Position numbers and translations under genes: made by a program. Below, piece after piece: positions 3,532 to 29,149 of a stretch of 44,751 bases of DNA (position 1 is the first letter of the stretch; each line of letters starts with the position of its first letter). The stretch is from Vicinamibacterales bacterium (GTDB lineage Bacteria > Acidobacteriota > Vicinamibacteria > Vicinamibacterales > Fen-181), in NCBI GenBank assembly GCA_036504215.1, contig DASXVO010000019.1, positions 1 to 44,751 of the forward strand, in the 5' to 3' direction. Below the pieces are notes generated by a model. It was not told the origin of the DNA and searched no databases. It saw only the letters and a list, made by a program, of their open reading frames with translations.

Positions 3532-4110
3532 ATGGCTTACACGGCAAAGGACTACTCCGCCCTGATCGGCATGCCCGGCTTCAGCGAGACGCTGCTGAAG
3601 AACCACTTCACGCTCTACCAGGGCTACGTCACCAACACCAACAAGCTGCTCGACGCGCTCGACGCGATGCTGAAGGACGGCAAGGCTGGCACGCCCGAGT
3701 ACGCCGAATTGAAGCGGCGTCTCGGCTGGGAGTTCGACGGGATGCGGCTCCACGAGTTCTACTTCGAGAACCTCGGCGGCAAGGCGCCGCTCGCTCCCAC
3801 CGGGAAGCTCGGGAGGAAGCTGACGGCCGACTTCGGCAGCCACGAGAACTGGGAGAAGGATTTCAAGGCGACCGGCGCGATGCGCGGGATCGGCTGGACG
3901 GTGCTCTATCAGGATCCGACGAACGGGAAGCTGGCGAACTTCTGGATCACCGAGCACGACGGCGGCCATCCGGCCGGCTGCACGCCGCTGCTCATCATGG
4001 ACGTGTTCGAGCACGCCTTCATGATCGACTACGGCCTCAAGCGCCCGGACTACATCGCGGCGTTCTTCAACAACATCGACTGGAACGCGGTCGAAGCGCG
4101 ACTCAAGTAG
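3532..4110 (+). CDS. Superoxide dismutase, Fe/Mn family
   Basis: Predicted 192-residue Fe/Mn superoxide dismutase, converting superoxide to oxygen and hydrogen peroxide. The metal ligands fit the family pattern: H25 (NHFTLYQGYV), H74 (RLHEFYFENL), D157 and H161 (MDVFEHAF). Two details are unusual. The common DVWEHAY motif has Phe in place of Trp. Where Mn enzymes have Gln in an NQD motif, 15 residues before the ligand Asp, this protein has H142 in EHD; that position tunes the metal potential. There is no signal peptide, so it is probably cytoplasmic. An ORF extends 10 codons upstream to a GTG, but the ATG at 3532 has an ideal AGGAGG six bases away. The next gene begins one base after the stop, so it is probably co-transcribed with the two CydA-like subunits. 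Confidence 0.95.
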   Translation: MAYTAKDYSALIGMPGFSETLLKNHFTLYQGYVTNTNKLLDALDAMLKDGKAGTPEYAELKRRLGWEFDGMRLHEFYFENLGGKAPLAPTGKLGRKLTADFGSHENWEKDFKATGAMRGIGWTVLYQDPTNGKLANFWITEHDGGHPAGCTPLLIMDVFEHAFMIDYGLKRPDYIAAFFNNIDWNAVEARLK

Positions 4111-4111
4111 G

Positions 4112-5737
4112 ATGGATTACCCGCTCTGGTCGCTGCCGGCCAAAGGCCTGCTGATCGCCTTCGTGGCGGTGGTGCACGTCTTCATCTCGCACTTCGCCGT
4201 CGGCGGCGGCCTCTTCCTCGTCCTGGCCGAGCGGAAGGCCCGGCGCGAGGGCGACGAGGCGCTGCTCGGCTACGTCCGCCAGCACAGCCGCTTCTTCGTG
4301 ATGCTGACACTCGTGTTCGGAGCGATCACTGGTGTCGGCATCTGGTCCACGATCGGCCTGGTTCACCCCCAGGCCACCTCCACGCTCATCAGCGTCTTCC
4401 TCTGGGCGTGGGCGATCGAGTGGACGTTGTTCGCGACCGAGATTGCCGCGGCGATGGTCTACTACTACGGCTGGGACCGGCTCGATGCGCGCACGCACGT
4501 CACCGTCGGCTGGATCTACTTCGTCGCCGCCTGGCTGAGCCTCTTCGTCATCAACAGCATTCTCAGCTTCATGCTGACGCCCGGAAGCTGGATTACGAAC
4601 CGCAGCCTCGTCTCTGGCTTCCTGAATCCGACCTTCCTGCCGTCGCTCGTCGCGCGAACGCTGGTGGCGTTCGGCCTCGCCGGGTTGTACGCGCTGCTGA
4701 CGGCGGCCCGGATGCGGGACCCGGCGCTGAAGGAGAAGGTGGCGCGGTACGCGCTGCGCTGGATCGTCCCGATGGCGATCGGCCTGCCGGTCGCGGTGAC
4801 GTCGTATCTGGGCGTGGCCTTCCTCGTCGGTGTGCCGATCGGCGAACCGCTCGGCGGGAACTCGGGCGCGGTCGACGGCCTCGCCAGCGCGCTCCTCCAC
4901 GGCAGCGCGAGCGGCAACCCGGTCGCGATTCGCGCGACGCAAGTGGTCATCGTGGCGTCCACGTGGACGCTGCTGCTGGCGCTCGTGGCCACCACGATCC
5001 GGCGGCGGCGGTACGGCCTGCCCCTGGCGCTGGCCATCCTCGCCGCGACCTTCACCGCGATGGGCGCCGGCGAGTGGGTTCGGGAGGACCTGCGCAAGCC
5101 GTACGTGATCGGCGGCTACATGTTCGTGAACGGCGTTCGCGCGACGTCCGCCGCGGACGACCGCTTCTCCATCACCACCGTCAACCGGGATGGCGTGCTG
5201 CAGTCGGCGCTGTGGAAGCGGCCCATCGGGGCGACCGCTGACCGCACGGCCGCCGAAGGTGCGGAGGTGTTCCGGCTGCTCTGCACGCCGTGCCACACGC
5301 AGGATGGATATCTCGCCATCAGACCACTGGTGCGCGGCAGGGGCCAGGAGGCCATCCGTTCGACGCTCGCGAACCTGGACACCTGGCGGGGCCGACGCAT
5401 GCCACCCTTCACCGGGACCAATGCCGAACGCGAGGCACTGTCTGCCTATCTCACACGTCTCGGCGGCGGCCGGCTCACGCCCCGGTTGGACGGACCATCG
5501 GCCGATGTCGGCTACACGTACTTCGAGGCCAATTGCTCCGCGTGTCACGGCTCGGGTGCCGATTTCCAGATCGGCGGACGCGGCCGCACCGTCGCGCAGT
5601 ACTACGAGACGCTCGGCAGACTTCCGCAGGTGAACGACGTGATGTCGGCATTCAACGGGACCGACGACCAACGCAGAGCGCTCGCCGATTACTTGACGAC
5701 GCTGCCGGCGGCTGCTGGAACGCGAGGTGTCCGATGA
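4112..5737 (+). CDS. CydA-like membrane subunit with C-terminal diheme cytochrome c
   Basis: Predicted 541-residue membrane protein. The N-terminal 330 or so residues resemble CydA, the heme subunit of cytochrome bd oxidase. VVHVFISHFAVGG fits helix 1 with H22 at the place of the helix-1 heme ligand. AIEWTLFATEI holds two acidic residues (E103, E110) near the conserved CydA Glu pair, and YYYGWDRL matches the CydA FFFGWDRL segment. By eye, the position of the second heme-b His (E. coli H186) seems to be Arg here. The C-terminal part is periplasmic-type cytochrome c with CTPCH (C391-H395) and CSACH (C475-H479). Such c-type fusions suggest a member of the bd superfamily that is not a classical quinol oxidase. 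It follows sod by one base and overlaps the next gene by 4 bp (ATGA), so the two subunits should be made together. Confidence 0.82.
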   Translation: MDYPLWSLPAKGLLIAFVAVVHVFISHFAVGGGLFLVLAERKARREGDEALLGYVRQHSRFFVMLTLVFGAITGVGIWSTIGLVHPQATSTLISVFLWAWAIEWTLFATEIAAAMVYYYGWDRLDARTHVTVGWIYFVAAWLSLFVINSILSFMLTPGSWITNRSLVSGFLNPTFLPSLVARTLVAFGLAGLYALLTAARMRDPALKEKVARYALRWIVPMAIGLPVAVTSYLGVAFLVGVPIGEPLGGNSGAVDGLASALLHGSASGNPVAIRATQVVIVASTWTLLLALVATTIRRRRYGLPLALAILAATFTAMGAGEWVREDLRKPYVIGGYMFVNGVRATSAADDRFSITTVNRDGVLQSALWKRPIGATADRTAAEGAEVFRLLCTPCHTQDGYLAIRPLVRGRGQEAIRSTLANLDTWRGRRMPPFTGTNAEREALSAYLTRLGGGRLTPRLDGPSADVGYTYFEANCSACHGSGADFQIGGRGRTVAQYYETLGRLPQVNDVMSAFNGTDDQRRALADYLTTLPAAAGTRGVR

Positions 5738-6810
5738 TCCCCGGACCGGATGTCGTGCCGCTCCCGGCGCCGCCCTGGTTGCTCTCGACGTTGCTGATGC
5801 TGCTGTTCGTGCTGCATCTGGTGCCGATGAACCTCCTGCTTGGCGGTTCTATCATCGCGGCGGTCTCCCGCATCCGCGGCCGCACGAACGCCCACGCCGC
5901 CGCGCTCGCGGACCTCATCGCACACGCGCTCCCCGTCATCGTGGCGGCGACGGTGTCCCTCGGTGTGGCCGCACTCCTGTTCGTGCAGGCGCTCTACGGC
6001 CGTCTGTTCTTCACGGCGGCGGTGCTGATGGCCGCCGCGTGGCTGGGTCTCGTCGTCCTGTTGATCCTCGCCTACTACGGCACGTACGTCGGCGCGGCTC
6101 GGCGGTCGGCCGGGTTGGCCTGGGTGATTGTCGTGCTCGTCGCCGCGATCGGCTTCATCCAGTCGAACGTGATGAGCCTGATGCTTCGGCCGCCATCTCT
6201 CTCGGCAAAGTTCGCGCTCAGCGCTGCCGGGCTGCACTGGAACCTCGGCGATCCAACGCTTGCACCTCGCTGCCTGCACATGCTGATCGGGTCGGTCGCC
6301 GTGTCGGGCGCGGCTGTCGCCGCGATGGGCCTGGTGGCCCGGCGGCGCGATGTGCTGTTCGCGAATTGGCTCGTGCATCACGGCGTGCTGTGGTGCGCCT
6401 GCGGAACCGTGGTCAACCTGCTGGCGGGTTTCTGGTGGCTGGGCGCGCTGCCCTCGGAGATCCTGCTGCGCTTCATGGGACGAGACCTCGCCGGGACCAT
6501 CGCCATGGGCGTTGGCATTCTCGCGGCCCTGTCGGCGCTCGGTCACTTCATCCCCGCGGCTTACGCCGGTGCGCCCGGCTCGCTCGTTGTCGGCGGCGTC
6601 GGCAGCCTGGCCGTCAGTCTGGCGTCGATGGCCTTCGTCCGCGACGTTGTCCGCCGCGCGATGCTGCAAGGCGCGGGCTTCGCAATCACGACATCGCTCG
6701 CCCCTCAGTGGGGCGCGATCGCCGTGTTTGCGCTGCTGCTCGTCACAGCCGCGGGCACAATCGTCTGGATGGTGAAGAAACTGATGACGCCTGCGAGGAC
6801 TACGGCTTGA
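5734..6810 (+). CDS. Second CydA-like integral membrane subunit
   Basis: Predicted 358-residue protein, hydrophobic almost throughout, with about nine membrane segments. It looks like a divergent second copy of the CydA fold. LLFVLHLVPMNLLLGG resembles CydA helix 1 with H28 at the ligand position. RCLHMLIGSVAVSGA resembles the helix around CydA H186, here H182, the ligand that the upstream subunit seems to lack. IQSNVMSLMLRP resembles the conserved loop after GWDR. I infer that the pair forms a heterodimer in which heme ligands are divided between subunits. There is no cytochrome c motif. The start ATG overlaps the upstream stop. Its 3' end overlaps the convergent HAD gene by 11 bp. It could also be described simply as a cytochrome-associated membrane protein of unknown family. 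Confidence 0.72.
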   Translation: MIPGPDVVPLPAPPWLLSTLLMLLFVLHLVPMNLLLGGSIIAAVSRIRGRTNAHAAALADLIAHALPVIVAATVSLGVAALLFVQALYGRLFFTAAVLMAAAWLGLVVLLILAYYGTYVGAARRSAGLAWVIVVLVAAIGFIQSNVMSLMLRPPSLSAKFALSAAGLHWNLGDPTLAPRCLHMLIGSVAVSGAAVAAMGLVARRRDVLFANWLVHHGVLWCACGTVVNLLAGFWWLGALPSEILLRFMGRDLAGTIAMGVGILAALSALGHFIPAAYAGAPGSLVVGGVGSLAVSLASMAFVRDVVRRAMLQGAGFAITTSLAPQWGAIAVFALLLVTAAGTIVWMVKKLMTPARTTA

Positions 6811-22804: not shown

Positions 22805-23422
22805 ATGACCTGCCACCGCCGATTGATCGTCTTCGTCATCGCCGTCGCGATCGGCCTGGTTGTCGCGCTTCCAGGCGCGCACGCCGCCGGGCCCGCAATC
22901 ACGGGAACCGTGAAGGCCACAGGACTCTCGTCGAATGCCGACGCCGTCGTGTTCGTCGTGCAGGCGCCCGGCACCTTCAAGCCGCCCGCCGAGCCGATGA
23001 CCATGGATCAGAAGCAGTTCCAGTTCATCCCGCACGTGATGCCCGTCGTGCTCGGCACGGTCGTCAAGTTCCTCAACAGCGATCCCACGCCGCACAACGT
23101 GTTCTCGCCGGACTTCGAGAAGTACAACCTGGGCACGTGGCCTCAAGGTCAGACCAAGGACCGCCCGTTCGCGGCGTGCGCGAAGTTCCCCTGCGTCTAC
23201 ACCCAACTGTGCCGCGTGCACCCGGAGATGGAGGGGTTCGTCGTCGTCGTGCAGAACCCGTACTTCGGCGTCACCGACAAGGCCGGCCATTTCGCGATCG
23301 ACGGCGTTCCACCGGGCAGTTACACGCTGGCCGTGTGGCATCCGAAGCTCAAGGCGCAGCCCAAGCCGGTGATTGTCGAGGCGGGAAAGCCCGCGACCGT
23401 GGACTTCGTGCTCGCCCGGTGA
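22805..23422 (+). CDS. Exported cupredoxin with carboxypeptidase-regulatory-like tail
   Basis: Predicted 205-residue exported blue-copper-type protein. After a signal peptide ending at AHAA, a plastocyanin-like domain holds the likely type 1 copper ligands H97 (TPHNVFSPD), C136, H139 and M142 (LCRVHPEM). A short domain at about 155-205 (VTDKAGHFAIDGVPPGSYTLAVWHPKL) resembles carboxypeptidase-regulatory-like or MauL-type modules. Such proteins act as small periplasmic electron carriers or copper-binding accessory factors. In this operon a carrier between the bc complex and the barrel-cytochrome is the simplest reading. The gene starts 58 bp after the previous stop, with a GGGAGA ribosome site, and ends 20 bp before the flavoprotein gene. 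Confidence 0.85.
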   Translation: MTCHRRLIVFVIAVAIGLVVALPGAHAAGPAITGTVKATGLSSNADAVVFVVQAPGTFKPPAEPMTMDQKQFQFIPHVMPVVLGTVVKFLNSDPTPHNVFSPDFEKYNLGTWPQGQTKDRPFAACAKFPCVYTQLCRVHPEMEGFVVVVQNPYFGVTDKAGHFAIDGVPPGSYTLAVWHPKLKAQPKPVIVEAGKPATVDFVLAR

Positions 23423-23442
23423 CGCGTGACGGAGGCAGACGC

Positions 23443-25356
23443 ATGGCCTGGCGCCTCTACCCGACGGTCGTGCCGACGTTTCAGTACTTCCTCGATCTGA
23501 TCCCGTGCCGGACCGCGTGTCCGGTGCACACCAATGCCGGCGCATACGTCCGCGCGGTCGCCGACGGCAACACCGCGCGAGGCTATGACATCGCCCGCGC
23601 ACCCAACCCGCTCGCGTCGGTCTGCGGGCGGATTTGCGCCCATCCGTGCGAGTCGAAATGCCGGCGGGGCACCATCGACCAGCCGATCTCCATTCGCGCG
23701 CTGAAGCGCACGCTGACCGAACGCCACGGCGTCGAGAACCGGATCGGCGCGCCCCGGACGACGCCGCTCCAGCCGCTGGGCCTGGCCGTTCGAGAGGGCG
23801 GGGAGGCCAGGCGGATCGCGGTCGTCGGCGCCGGCCCGGCCGGCGTCAGTTGTGCGCACGACCTCGCGATGATGGGCTACCGGGTCACCCTCTTCGAGGC
23901 GGCACCGGTCGCCGGCGGAATGTTGTATCAGGGCGTGCCCGAGTACCGCCTGCCGCGCGACATCATCCGCAGCGAGATCGACCAGGTCCTGGCGCTTGGC
24001 GTGGAGTTCCGTCCCAACTGGCGGCTGGGTCGTGACTTCACGGTGGCAGACCTGATGCGCAACGACTACGCCGCGGTCTTCCTGGGCCTCGGCGCGACGC
24101 GCGGGCGCGACCTGAACATCCCCGGCCGCGAACTCGACGGCGTCATCAACGGCGTCGACTTCCTGCTCAACGTCAATCTCGGTTACCACGTCGCGGTTGG
24201 CGAACGCGTGGTCGTGATCGGCGGCGGCAACGTGGCGATCGACGTCGCGCGCACGGTGCTGCGGTACGCCCAGCCCGAGGAGCGCGCGGACGTTCCGCGC
24301 GGCGCAAGTGAACTGCTCCAGGCGTGGGGCTACGACAACGCCTTCATCGACGCGGCCCGCACGGCGCTGCGCCTCGGCGCCCGTCACGTGCAGCTCGTGT
24401 GCCTCGAGTCCAGGAACGAGATGCCGGCGACGCCGATCGAGGTCAACGAGGCCGAGGAAGAAGGGATCACGCTGCTGGCGGGACGAGGACCGAAGGCGAT
24501 TCTCGGGTCGGGCAATCGCGTGTCGGCGCTGGAGACGATCGACGTGGCGTCGGTGTTCGACGCCGGCGGTCGCTTCAACCCGAGCTTCGTCGCCGGAAGC
24601 GAGAAGCGCGTCGAGGCGGACACCATCATCCTGGCCGTCGGGCAGCAGCCCGACACGGCCTGTCTGTCGGCGGACTCGGAGATCGAGATCACGCCGCGCG
24701 GGCTGGTGGCGGTGGACCCGCGCACGCTCTCGACGACCCTCCCGGGCGTGTTCTGTGGAGGCGACCTCGCATTCGGCCCGCGCATCGTGATCGAGGCCGT
24801 CGCTGACGGAAAGCGCGCCGCGCTCGCGATCCACGAGCACCTCGGCGGCGGAGCCGTGCCCCGAGCGAAGGCGCGCTTCGTTCTCACCGGGCTCGACCGG
24901 TCGGGCGATCACTACGACCGGATTCGGCGGCACGAACCGCCGAGCCTGGCCGTGACCAGGCGGACGGGCTTCCGGGAGGTCGAGGAAGCGTATGGAGAGT
25001 CGGAAGCCCGCGCTGAAGGCTCCCGCTGCCTGCAGTGCAACGTGCAGACGGTCTTCGACTCGGAACGATGCATCCTGTGCAGCGCCTGCGTGGAGATCTG
25101 TCCGGAGGCCTGCCTGACGCTCGTACCCGTGTCGCAACTGCGTGGCGGAGTGGAATTGGACGGCGTCCGCCAGGCCCTCGACGCGGGCGAGGATGCCGGC
25201 GCGATCGTGAAGGACGAGGAGCGCTGCATCCGCTGCGGCCTGTGCGCGGTGCGTTGCCCGACCAGGGCGATCACGATGGAGCTGCTCGATCTCGACGAGT
25301 CGCCGGTCACGGCGCTCGGTCTGTTCCACGAAGGGATGGGAGAGGCGCGGCGATGA
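23443..25356 (+). CDS. GltD-like FAD/NAD(P) oxidoreductase with ferredoxin clusters at both ends
   Basis: Predicted 637-residue cytoplasmic-type flavoprotein. The N-terminus has the cysteine set of glutamate synthase small subunits (C22, C26, C61, C65, C69, C73), expected to bind 4Fe-4S clusters. A FAD Rossmann motif lies at about 125-135 ([12 protein letters not shown]) and an NAD(P)-binding one at about 257-268 ([12 protein letters not shown]). [21 protein letters not shown] is the conserved flavin-binding end. A further ferredoxin domain has two CX2CX2CX3C motifs starting at C543 ([12 protein letters not shown]) and C595 ([12 protein letters not shown]). No GltB partner is present. The stop overlaps the Rieske gene start (ATGA). 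I infer that it links NAD(P)H or ferredoxin to the quinone/bc complex instead of making glutamate. A GGAGG ribosome site precedes the ATG. Confidence 0.88.
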
Positions 25357-25823
25357 GCGTGACGCCAGACCGCGCGGCAGACGGCGCAAATCGCCGCCAG
25401 TTCTTCCTGGCCGGCGTCGTGGCCCTCGGTGTGTCGGTGACCGGATTCGTCGCCAGCACCTTGCGGTTTCTCGTGCCCAACGTGCTCTACGAGCCCCCAG
25501 GCCGCTTCACCATCGGCAACCCCGCCGACTTTCCGCCGGGCTCGGTCACCTTCCTCGAAGACCGTCGTCTGTTCGTGTTCAACACGGCCGAGGGCTTCTA
25601 CGGCGTCTCGTCGGTCTGCACGCACCTCGGATGCAACGTCAAGCGAGGGGGGCCGGGATTCCAGTGCCCGTGCCACGGGAGCCAGTTCGACGACAGCGGC
25701 CGCGTCGCACGCGGGCCGGCCCCCACGCCGCTCGCCTGGTATGCGCTCAGTCTCTCGGCGCGCGGCGAACTGGTCGTGGACGTGGATCGAACCGTTGGGC
25801 CGGACTTCCGGCTGCGGGTGTGA
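25353..25823 (+). CDS. Rieske iron-sulfur protein of a bc complex
   Basis: Predicted 156-residue Rieske protein. A twin-arginine motif (NRRQFFLAG) and one hydrophobic helix (about 18-42) should anchor it in the membrane with the cluster domain outside. The 2Fe-2S ligands are C89 and H91 (CTHLGCNV) and C105 and H108 ([12 protein letters not shown]). C94 and C107 would form the stabilising disulfide of true bc-type Rieske proteins. It is close to the size of b6f-type Rieske subunits. It takes the first electron from quinol and passes it to cytochrome c. It overlaps the flavoprotein gene by 4 bp and precedes cytochrome b by 45 bp, so the three are clearly one unit. Confidence 0.95.
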
Positions 25824-25868
25824 GTCTCTCGCGCCCCGAACACTCGAACGCGTCTCGCGGAGCAACCA

Positions 25869-27119
25869 GTGACTGAGACGATCGTCCGCCGAACGGCGGG
25901 ATGGCTCACGGCGATCGGAAGATCGGTGGCTCGAATCGGCTGGCCGCGTACCGACAAGGACCGCGCGGCCGTGATGATCTCCAGCCTGTTCCTCCACATC
26001 CATCCGGCGCGCGTCAGTCGGCACGCGCTGCGGCCTCGCGCCACGCTCGGGCTCGGCCTGGTCTCGGCGGTGCTCTTCGGGGTGCTCACGGTTACCGGGC
26101 TCGCCCTGATGCTCTATTACGTCCCGTATCCCAACGAGGCGTACCGGAGCATGAAGGATCTGCAGTTCGTCGTGACCTTCGGTGTGGTGCTCCGCAACAT
26201 GCACCGCTGGTCGGCCCACGCGATGGTGGCCGTCGTCTTCCTGCACCTGTGCCGGGTGTTCTGGACGGGCTCCTACAAGGCGCCTCGCGAGTTCAACTGG
26301 ATCGTCGGCGTCTCTCTGCTGCTCCTGACCCTGGCCCTCTCGTTCACCGGCTACCTGTTGCCGTGGGATCAGCTCGCCTACTGGGCGATCACCGTCGGGT
26401 CGAGCATCGCCGCGTACACACCGCTCGTCGGCCGCGAGGTCAAGTTCCTGCTGCTCGGAGGTCACGTCATCGGGCCGATGACGCTGCTGCGCTTCTACGT
26501 CTTCCACTGCGTGGTGCTGCCAGGCCTGGTCGTGATGCTGGTGTCACTCCACATCTGGCGCGTGCGGAAGGACGGCCTCAGCGGCCCCACGGTCACGGTG
26601 GCACCGGTGGAAGAGACGGGCGGGGTGTTCCCGCCGTCGACGAAGACCTACGGCCTGATGGCACTCACCAGGCGGCCGTCGGCGTCGGTGGCGGCGCGCG
26701 ATCCGCACGACGAAGTGTTCGCCTGGCCGCACCTGTTGTACCGCGAGTTGCTGGTGACGCTCGCGGTCGTCGTCGCGCTCCACATCGTGTCGCTGCTGTT
26801 CAATGCGCCGCTCGAGGAGATGGCCGATCCGACCCGGACCCCCAACCCCGCCAAGGCGCCCTGGTACTTCCTCGGCCTCCAGGAACTCGTCCACTACTCG
26901 GCGTTCGTCGGCGGGGTGCTGGTGCCGACCGCGATCGTGGCGGCACTCATCGCGCTGCCGTATCTCGACCGGAACCCGCATGGTGCCGGCGTCTGGTTCG
27001 CTTCGGAGCGTCGTCTCGCCAACACGATCTTCACGGCGATCGTCGCCGTGGCGATCGTCCTGACGGTGGTCGGCACGCTCTTCCGCGGAGCGAACTGGGC
27101 CTGGGTGTGGCCATGGTAG
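25869..27119 (+). CDS. Cytochrome b of a bc complex, one-piece, PWY variant
   Basis: Predicted 416-residue membrane protein that oxidises quinol and carries two b hemes. The heme ligands are H112 and H126 (13 residues between) and H213 and H228 (14 between, the cytochrome b6-type spacing). [11 protein letters not shown] and RKDGLSGP also resemble b6. Unlike b6f, the N-terminal heme part and the subunit-IV-like C-terminal part are in one chain. The quinol-site PEWY motif reads APWY ([16 protein letters not shown]), lacking the Glu. From knowledge of the family, changes there are common in low-potential, menaquinol-using complexes. The GTG start at 25869 follows the Rieske stop by 45 bp; the stop overlaps the octaheme gene by 7 bp. 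About 35 residues precede the first membrane-associated segment. Confidence 0.94.
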
Positions 27120-29149
27120 CGAGGTTCCACGTTGCGTTTGCCCTGCTGAGCGTCGCGTTCCTGGTGGTCTTCTCGTGGGTGTTTCTCAGCGAATACGGCG
27201 CCGAGTGGCGGGCGGTGCAGGCGCGGTTCGGGACCATCGAGCGGTCGCTCAAGAACCCGCACCAGCTCGCGCAGGCGTCACCGGTCGGTGGCCTCCGGCA
27301 AGTGTGGCTCGCCGACCTCGGCCGCGTGGACCGCTGCACGACGTGCCACCTGGGAATCGACGACCCCGCGTTCGCATCGGCGCCCCAGCCGTTCCGCACG
27401 CACCCGGGCGCGTGGCTGACGACGCACCCGGTCGAGCGCTACGGTTGCACGGTGTGCCACGACGGACAGGGCGAGGCGACCGACTATCGGCACGCCGCAC
27501 ATCAGCCGATCCCGTTCGTTCAGCGGCCCATGCGGACGCTCGAGACCATCGAAGCCACGTGCGGCAGTTGTCACCGGGCCATCGATCCCCCAGATGCCCC
27601 GATGCTGCAGACCGGGCGCCGCCTGATCGCGGAATCCGGGTGCGTGAGCTGCCACGAGATTCCCGGCTTCGAGTCGACGACGTTCAGCGGCCCGGCGCTC
27701 GACAGCCTCGCCTACAAGGTGCGGCCCGGCTGGCTGCAGGGCTGGCTGCGGGATCCCAAGTCGTATCTGCCCCATTCGAAGATGGGGAATTTCAGGCTGA
27801 CCGCGACCGAGGTCACCGGCCTCCAGGCGCTGCTCCTGTCCCAGCGCGACACGTTACCCGCCGACAGCACCGCGATTGACTGGAAGAAAGGGGACACCGC
27901 CAAGGGCAAGGCGCTCTTCGGCGAGCTGCGCTGCGTGACCTGCCACGCGGTCGAGGGGCGGGGCGGCACCACGGGGCCAGAACTGACGCGAATAGGGGAC
28001 AAGGTGCGTCGCGACTGGCTCTTCGGCTTCCTGAAGGATCCGCACCGCGACCAGCCGCAGACCGCGATGCTCCAGTACCGCCTCACCGATGACCAACTGC
28101 GCGACCTGACGGCGTTCCTCCTGGACGAATACAAGACGGGCACCGAGCCGGAAACCGCGTCGGCGCCGTACCAGGACGCACCTACCGTTGCCGCCGGGCG
28201 GGCTGTCTTCGTGCGGCGCGGCTGCTACAGCTGCCACCGGCTCGCCGGCATTCGAGCGACCGGTAGAATCGGACCGAGCCTGGCTGGAGTCGCCGACCGT
28301 GACCCCGACGAGGAGACCTACGGTTCATCGAGCGTTCGACACTCGACCGACAACTACATCTACCTGAAGGTGCTGAAGCCGGACGCGCTCGGTTCTCCAT
28401 CCCTGATGCCGACTTTTGGGTTTGCTCCAGGGGACGCGGCAGCCGTCGCCGTGGCGCTTGCGAGCCTCCGCAAGGGCGACCTTCCGGCATCCCGTGTGCA
28501 GCAGGCCATTCCACCGAAGCCCTACCAGCTTCGCGGACCGTTCGGCGATCTGGCTACCCGGTATCGATGCCTGAGTTGCCACAGCATCGACGGATCCGGC
28601 GGCACGCTCTCAACCGTGCCGCTCGACCGGATCGGCAGCCAGTTGCGGCGAGACTACCTGGCGTCGTACCTGCTCAACCCGGGCGCGGTCCGGGTCAGCC
28701 TCGAGGCGCGGATGCCGCAGTTTCACATGTTGCCGACCGAGGCGTCTGCCATCGCCGACTACGCCGCGGCCGTGTTCCTCGATGACACACTCGACCGCTA
28801 CGACGCGAACTTCACGGCCGAGGACGGCCGCCGCGGGGGCGCCCTGTACCGACAGTTGGGATGCGTGGGGTGCCACCAGATCAACTCACAGGGCGGATAC
28901 GTTGGGCCCGACCTGTCCGACACTGGCGCGCGGTTGCGGCCCGGGTGGATCGACGCGTGGCTGATGCACCCGGCTCAGTACAAGCCGGGCACGCTGCAGC
29001 CCGACTACGGGCTGTCAGCGGCGGACTCGCGATCGCTGACGGCGTACTTGAGCGGCCTGCACGCGCCGGCGGCCAAGGTCGTGCCTGGCCGGGCTCGAAC
29101 CTCGGCTCGCGGCCTGTCCGATTGGACTCGGCCGAACGGAACACAGTAG
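27113..29149 (+). CDS. Membrane-anchored octaheme cytochrome c
   Basis: Predicted 678-residue protein with one N-terminal membrane helix ([17 protein letters not shown]) and eight CXXCH motifs: CTTCH at C75, then CTVCH, CGSCH, CVSCH, CVTCH, CYSCH, CLSCH and CVGCH at C584. Several successive c domains share a repeated layout (G..LF...CVTCH, P.L..IG.KVR.DWL..FL.DP), suggesting growth by duplication of a monoheme unit. The first three hemes are more closely spaced. It is in the position of cytochrome c1 in the complex but far larger, and could be an electron wire from the Rieske protein to soluble carriers. Its start overlaps the cytochrome b stop (ATGGTAG). No known enzymatic octaheme signature such as CXXCK is seen, so I regard it as an electron-transfer protein. 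Confidence 0.92.

Follow-up and report, generated by a model that had tools for sequence, protein, structure and literature searches.

A c-heme CydA-like protein and a divergent CydA-type partner: a candidate cytochrome c:O2 oxidase pair in Acidobacteriota

Introduction

The heme ligands of Escherichia coli CydA are H19, H186 and M393, and its Q-loop binds quinol through K252 and E257. The division of the bd superfamily is reportedly the work of Murali, Gennis and Hemp (2021, ISME J 15:3534), in whose scheme the OR-C family is said to be without a quinol site and to carry heme c on the catalytic subunit. A title of Murali (2021) reportedly concerns the archaeal CydAA' of Caldivirga, an oxidase of two CydA paralogues that oxidises quinol. 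In the cited passages of PMC8509429, PMC10839748 and PMC13189123, the superfamily is split into qOR, OR-C and OR-N, with cytochrome c as the proposed donor outside qOR. According to the part of a 2021 review cited here (PMC8509429), the bd enzymes characterised to date are without exception quinol oxidases, and an enzyme using another donor was still to be obtained. Titles cited in PMC8951039 indicate that E99, E107 and E445 matter in the E. coli enzyme.

Here we describe two overlapping genes, P1 and P2, from a window (the whole analysed stretch of 44,751 nucleotides) on contig 19 of a 5.9-Mb genome. The literature searched yielded no description of a c-heme CydA pair in Acidobacteriota. Judging from sequence comparison, we consider it probable that P1 and P2 together form a heterodimeric cytochrome c:O2 oxidase of the CydA/CydA' type, belonging to the non-quinol branch of the bd superfamily. 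The family libraries searched do not recognise the partner subunit of this module; the module itself lies within the known bd superfamily.

Locus organization and genomic context

The features of the locus are as follows.

3532..4110, + strand: Fe/Mn superoxide dismutase (SOD; Sod_Fe_C, E 3.1e-27)
4112..5737, + strand: P1, 541 aa, CydA-like subunit fused to a C-terminal diheme cytochrome c
4175..4192, + strand: P1 helix 1 motif H22-V-F-I-S-H27, with H22 aligned with E. coli CydA H19
5072..5095, + strand: P1 helix 8 motif E321-W-V-R324-E325-D-L-R328, aligned with E. coli W441...E445...R448
5282..5296, + strand: first heme-c motif of P1, CTPCH, residues 391-395, with M430 downstream
5534..5548, + strand: second heme-c motif of P1, CSACH, residues 475-479, found in only part of the P1 family
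5734..6810, + strand: P2, 358 aa, divergent CydA-type partner (CydA') with nine predicted transmembrane helices
5815..5817, + strand: P2 H28, aligned with E. coli CydA H19 (hhalign)
6277..6279, + strand: P2 H182, at the position of H186, the ligand of heme b558 in E. coli CydA (hhalign)

The ATG start of P2 at 5734 overlaps the stop codon of P1 (ATGA). Upstream, the SOD gene ends one base before P1 begins; its open frame extends back to 3502, an AGGAGG precedes the ATG at 3532, and the gene is probably co-transcribed with P1. The preliminary description had linked the pair to superoxide dismutase. SOD lies beside P1 in the window and in relatives from the same genus and family, and in none of the other loci screened for it. 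With the linkage confined to genus and family, a place for SOD in the conserved module was rejected.

A canonical cydA and cydB occur together on another contig of the genome, which also encodes one heme-copper oxidase; P1-P2 is thus not the ordinary bd oxidase of this organism. Six NrfD-type genes lie on other contigs. Within the window, positions 23137-29149 (+ strand) encode a pyridine nucleotide-disulphide/4Fe-4S oxidoreductase, a Rieske protein, a cytochrome b and a multiheme cytochrome c of ~677 aa. The latter three lie at 25-29 kb, and the cluster represents an unusual bc-type complex, ~20 kb from the oxidase pair and a candidate electron donor for it. Some of these systems of the genome could feed cytochrome c.

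P1 combines a CydA core with a cytochrome c domain

P1 matches PF01654 (Cyt_bd_oxida_I) with 60 bits (E 1.8e-16), best over residues 15-222, and its CydA-like part comprises eight predicted transmembrane helices (~ residues 10-326). Profile-profile comparison with canonical CydA gave E 7e-10, and the heme-free structural model of P1 matched solved CydA structures with Z 26-29 (best 28.8). The models of P1 and P2 are single chains without hemes, built from shallow alignments, with mean pLDDT of 69 and 76.

Residue conservation was counted over the 63-member P1 family. H22, E103, E110, E325 and R328 fall at the places of E. coli H19, E99, E107, E445 and R448, the last two having been placed by counting back from a common R-x-P motif, and these five positions are kept in 60-63 of the 63 members. 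Individually, H22 and E103 are each present in 62/63 and E325 in 60/63, while E321, R324 and R328 are each found in 63/63. The acidic pair E103/E110 is spaced by seven residues, compared with eight in E. coli, and is followed by GWDRL; both the helix 1 histidine and this combination of acidic pair and GWDRL had been proposed for P1 from the sequence, and the alignment bears them out. A further near-invariant histidine of helix 1, H27 (60/63), was absent from that proposal. Where E. coli CydA has H186, P1 carries A181/R182, with R182 in 63/63. Thus, no counterpart of this low-spin heme b558 ligand was found in P1 in the alignment of the 63 members with E. coli CydA, in agreement with the earlier reading that P1 is without the second heme-b histidine.

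E325 is replaced by alanine in two members and by glutamine in one. The alanine variants are encoded at L030:6214-7866 and L031:260-1831, both of which keep E321. This pattern makes E321 a candidate for the actual ligand of the P1 family. In the same two proteins the second heme-c motif is degenerate (CLLGH in L030) or missing (L031).

The C-terminal domain of P1 (~ residues 375-530) matches cytochrome c in two stretches (PF13442, E 2.4e-13) and carries the two motifs CTPCH and CSACH, as expected from the earlier suggestion that the protein ends in two c hemes. Across the family, two heme-c motifs are present in 34/63 proteins, one in 24 and three in 3, so that 61/63 carry at least one; the two proteins without a motif (L033 and L034) are both cut by a contig end. 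The columns of the first motif and M430 are kept in all 61 of the 61 proteins that reach the domain, and M430 is likely the axial ligand of the first c heme. Family medians for lysine plus arginine are 6, 3, 4 and 2 in the inner loops and 0, 0, 1, 2 and 3 in the outer ones. This positive-inside charge pattern, together with the eight helices, places the c domain of P1 in the periplasm by prediction. The loop between helices VI and VII has ~38 residues, is variable, and is even shorter in L052, L054 and L055; judged by its length across the P1 family, the quinol-site Q-loop of canonical CydA is absent from P1.

P2 is a predicted second CydA-type protein

P2 had no match in Pfam or NCBIfam, a profile of its relatives had none in the PDB by sequence even at E 10, and a search of plasmids was likewise negative. 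Profile-profile alignment (hhalign; 62 P2 and 63 P1 proteins) related P2 to P1 with probability 97.8 and E 9e-13, and the match to the CydA profile, at E 1e-4, was weak by sequence. An AlphaFold2 model of P2 (13 sequences, mean pLDDT 76, pTM 0.78) matched solved CydA chains with Z 26-30 over ~340 residues, the highest being 30.1 to 5doq_A. Together, the profile match to P1 and the Z of 30 to CydA show P2, as far as profile and model predict, to be a divergent second CydA-type protein. The preliminary description had seen two CydA-like halves in the pair and proposed a CydA profile search as a check. This view was confirmed, directly for P1 through PF01654 and, for P2, through the P1 profile and without a direct Pfam match of its own; the best structural scores of the two models were Z 28.8 and 30.1.

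Two other assignments of P2 were rejected. As a CydB, it would have to be reconciled with a CydB profile probability of 0.6%, with CydA as the best-matching chain of each bd entry, and with the lack of a match of P2 to the CydB domain PF02322. As an NrfD-type protein, it has lower fold scores (Z 17-20 against alternative complex III subunits, well below CydA) and no Pfam match.

H28 of P2 aligns with E. coli H19 and is conserved in 61/61 proteins, so that a CydA-like helix 1 histidine is present in both subunits, as had been noted at the outset. R303 and R307 hardly vary, and 56/62 proteins have D or H at position 304; by motif comparison with P1, positions 304 and 307 occupy the places of E445 and R448. 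The earlier idea that H182 of P2 supplies the heme ligand missing from P1 fared less evenly. H182 is present in 53/62 proteins, and phenylalanine or methionine replaces it in the other nine, among them all six members of the bc-linked clade described below; no conserved second axial ligand for such a heme was seen in the P2 family. H182 may possibly take over from the heme b ligand that P1 lacks.

Some P2 proteins are extended. In a deep clade (L157:7414-8706, L158:6603-7922 and L160:7170-8582) P2 carries a C-terminal c-heme motif, and both subunits would thus bear heme c there. At L046:10205-11893 the P2 frame continues C-terminally for ~200 residues with a CLTCH motif, which could be a fusion.

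The pair is widespread and jointly inherited in Acidobacteriota

P2 was detected in 20 of 193 genomes of the class, with P1 in the same 20, and in 91 of 396 Acidobacteriota genomes. In distant loci, which were found via P2 and within this one phylum, a P1-type protein was close by in 40/40, side by side with P2 in 34 and with intervening genes in six. Across 59 loci, the pairwise distances of P1 are correlated with those of P2 (r 0.88), and the highest of 2000 shuffles reached at most 0.23; since shared genome ancestry contributes to this correlation, it speaks for joint inheritance more than for direct contact. A scan of genome contigs with P1, which reached close relatives, returned 14 records under the names Acidobacteria, Acidobacteriota or Vicinamibacteria(les) and one further record labelled uncultured bacterium. 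P1-P2 is a widespread, jointly inherited module. It suggests a function for P2-type proteins, which occur in roughly one in four of the Acidobacteriota genomes sampled; the phylum is abundant in soils.

CydA-like proteins of another kind also occur in the phylum. Loci L197 and L198 (genomes G206 and G200) encode proteins of 633-658 aa that score ~90 bits to PF01654 and are without c heme; no CydB match was found in these two genomes. Both are similar to the bd-like oxidases of 14 helices known from Nitrospira and Nitrospina.

A bc-linked clade and the proposed electron path

The six loci with genes between P2 and P1 (L140, L142, L143, L145, L146 and L148) form one clade (support 100/94), and the study window lies outside it. 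By Pfam, a Rieske protein is encoded between P2 and P1 in L140 and L146 and a cytochrome b in L140, L145, L146 and L148; in L143, both genes were recognised by eye. Clusters of the P2-Rieske-cytochrome b-P1 type (L140, L143, L145, L146 and L148) coincide with the loss of H182 from P2.

This linkage supports electron entry via cytochrome c, and of the independent hints it speaks most strongly for a chain that runs from quinol over a bc complex and cytochrome c to O2, with the pair as its last member. The predicted periplasmic location of the c hemes points the same way, so that the early proposal of electron delivery through cytochrome c has gained ground from both. With the P1 profile, a CydA-like protein of 633 aa from the same phylum, which has no c hemes, reaches 53 bits and E. 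coli CydA 11 bits; this fits the non-quinol side of the bd superfamily.

We infer heme occupancy, electron path, O2 as the substrate and charge separation in P1-P2. Under the proposed mechanism, the four-helix core of P1 would hold two active-site hemes, with H22, E103/E110, E321/E325 and R328 as candidate residues, and P1 would itself bring the periplasmic cytochrome c domain at which electrons enter; P2, as CydA', would occupy the place of CydB. Electrons would leave the quinol pool by way of alternative complex III or a complex of the bc type, reach a soluble or fused cytochrome c, and pass from there over the c hemes of P1 to the diheme site, where O2 would be reduced to water with protons from the cytoplasm.

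Alternative explanations

A different purpose for the same electron donor appears unlikely to us. A cytochrome c-fed, bd-type P1-P2 might act in detoxification (NO, peroxide) or in scavenging O2 under stress, with SOD co-expressed: SOD ends one base before P1 and adjoins it in close relatives, the cydAB genes and the heme-copper oxidase already serve respiration in this genome, and the cited passages of PMC10839748 report a part of canonical bd enzymes in detoxifying O2 and NO. However, the SOD linkage is limited to the family of the window, and the neighbours in the other clade, Rieske protein and cytochrome b, are parts of a respiratory chain. These two genes also give that clade its own means of quinol oxidation, which argues against a quinone-linked P1-P2 that would use an overlooked quinone site and transfer electrons between quinone and cytochrome c like alternative complex III; the near-invariance of the oxygen-reducing core heme residues of P1 argues against it too. 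We hold such a role to be unlikely, even though the cited part of PMC3578206 proposes it for the bd-like proteins of nitrite oxidisers and the membrane subunits of alternative complex III have the same fold, at lower scores (Z 16-20).

Whether P2 itself binds a cofactor bears on the division of labour within the pair. That P2 is a structural partner without redox cofactor, with P1 alone catalytic, is compatible with a cytochrome c:O2 oxidase and has, in our estimate, a considerable chance that falls somewhat short of even. The CydB of canonical bd enzymes is heme-free, H182 is lost in 9/62 P2 proteins, and the P2 family showed no conserved second axial ligand. Against this stand the near-invariance of H28, R303 and R307, the D or H at position 304 in 56/62, the alignment of H28 with E. 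coli H19, and the motif-based match of positions 304 and 307 to E445 and R448.

Beyond the heterodimeric cytochrome c:O2 oxidase that we favour, a wider reading is offered tentatively, and we rate it as rather doubtful. P2 would be a previously unrecognised subunit type, paired with a c-heme CydA throughout Acidobacteriota in an oxidase whose heme-binding is split between two CydA paralogues, and the bc clustering in one clade would suggest a single quinol-to-oxygen supercomplex without heme-copper oxidase. As a well-defined target of two genes, for which the partner, an alignment of the family, candidates for the heme ligands and a naturally bc-linked form are at hand, P1-P2 makes the idea of a bd-type enzyme acting as a cytochrome c oxidase directly testable.

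Comparison with known systems

P1 shares with OR-C and OR-N a CydA-type active-site core, the lack of a conserved quinol site and cytochrome c as the proposed donor. Two features reportedly typical of OR-C, a c-heme motif (61/63) and an absent Q-loop, are found in P1, which is likely an OR-C member on sequence grounds. CydAA' pairs are named in OR-N and in Archaea in the cited portions of the sources, which do not name a c-heme pair such as this one. The OR-N CydAA' of Nitrospinota and Nitrospirales, as described in the cited parts of PMC10839748, PMC12342949 and PMC3578206, likewise has two CydA-like subunits, no CydB and a presumed cytochrome c donor. The Nitrospina bd-like protein is given 14 transmembrane helices in the cited section of PMC3578206, whereas P1 has eight and fused c hemes, and P2, unlike the OR-N CydAA', is a short protein undetected by PF01654. 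With TO_3/TO_4 of Candidatus Manganitrophus (PMC9040806) as the point of comparison, the P2-Rieske-cytochrome b-P1 linkage seen here occurs in one Acidobacteriota clade only.

Neither P1 nor P2 matched PF03916 (NrfD), so the likeness to alternative complex III is one of fold (Z 16-20). Caldivirga CydAA' has two CydA paralogues, as does the present pair, which differs in being bacterial, in having c hemes and in being without a Q-loop. With canonical CydAB (E. coli, Geobacillus), the pair has the fold in common (Z 28-30), and P1 has equivalents of H19, E99/E107, E445 and R448; it differs from CydAB in that the Q-loop quinol site and the b558 ligand are missing from P1, c hemes are added, and CydA' replaces CydB.
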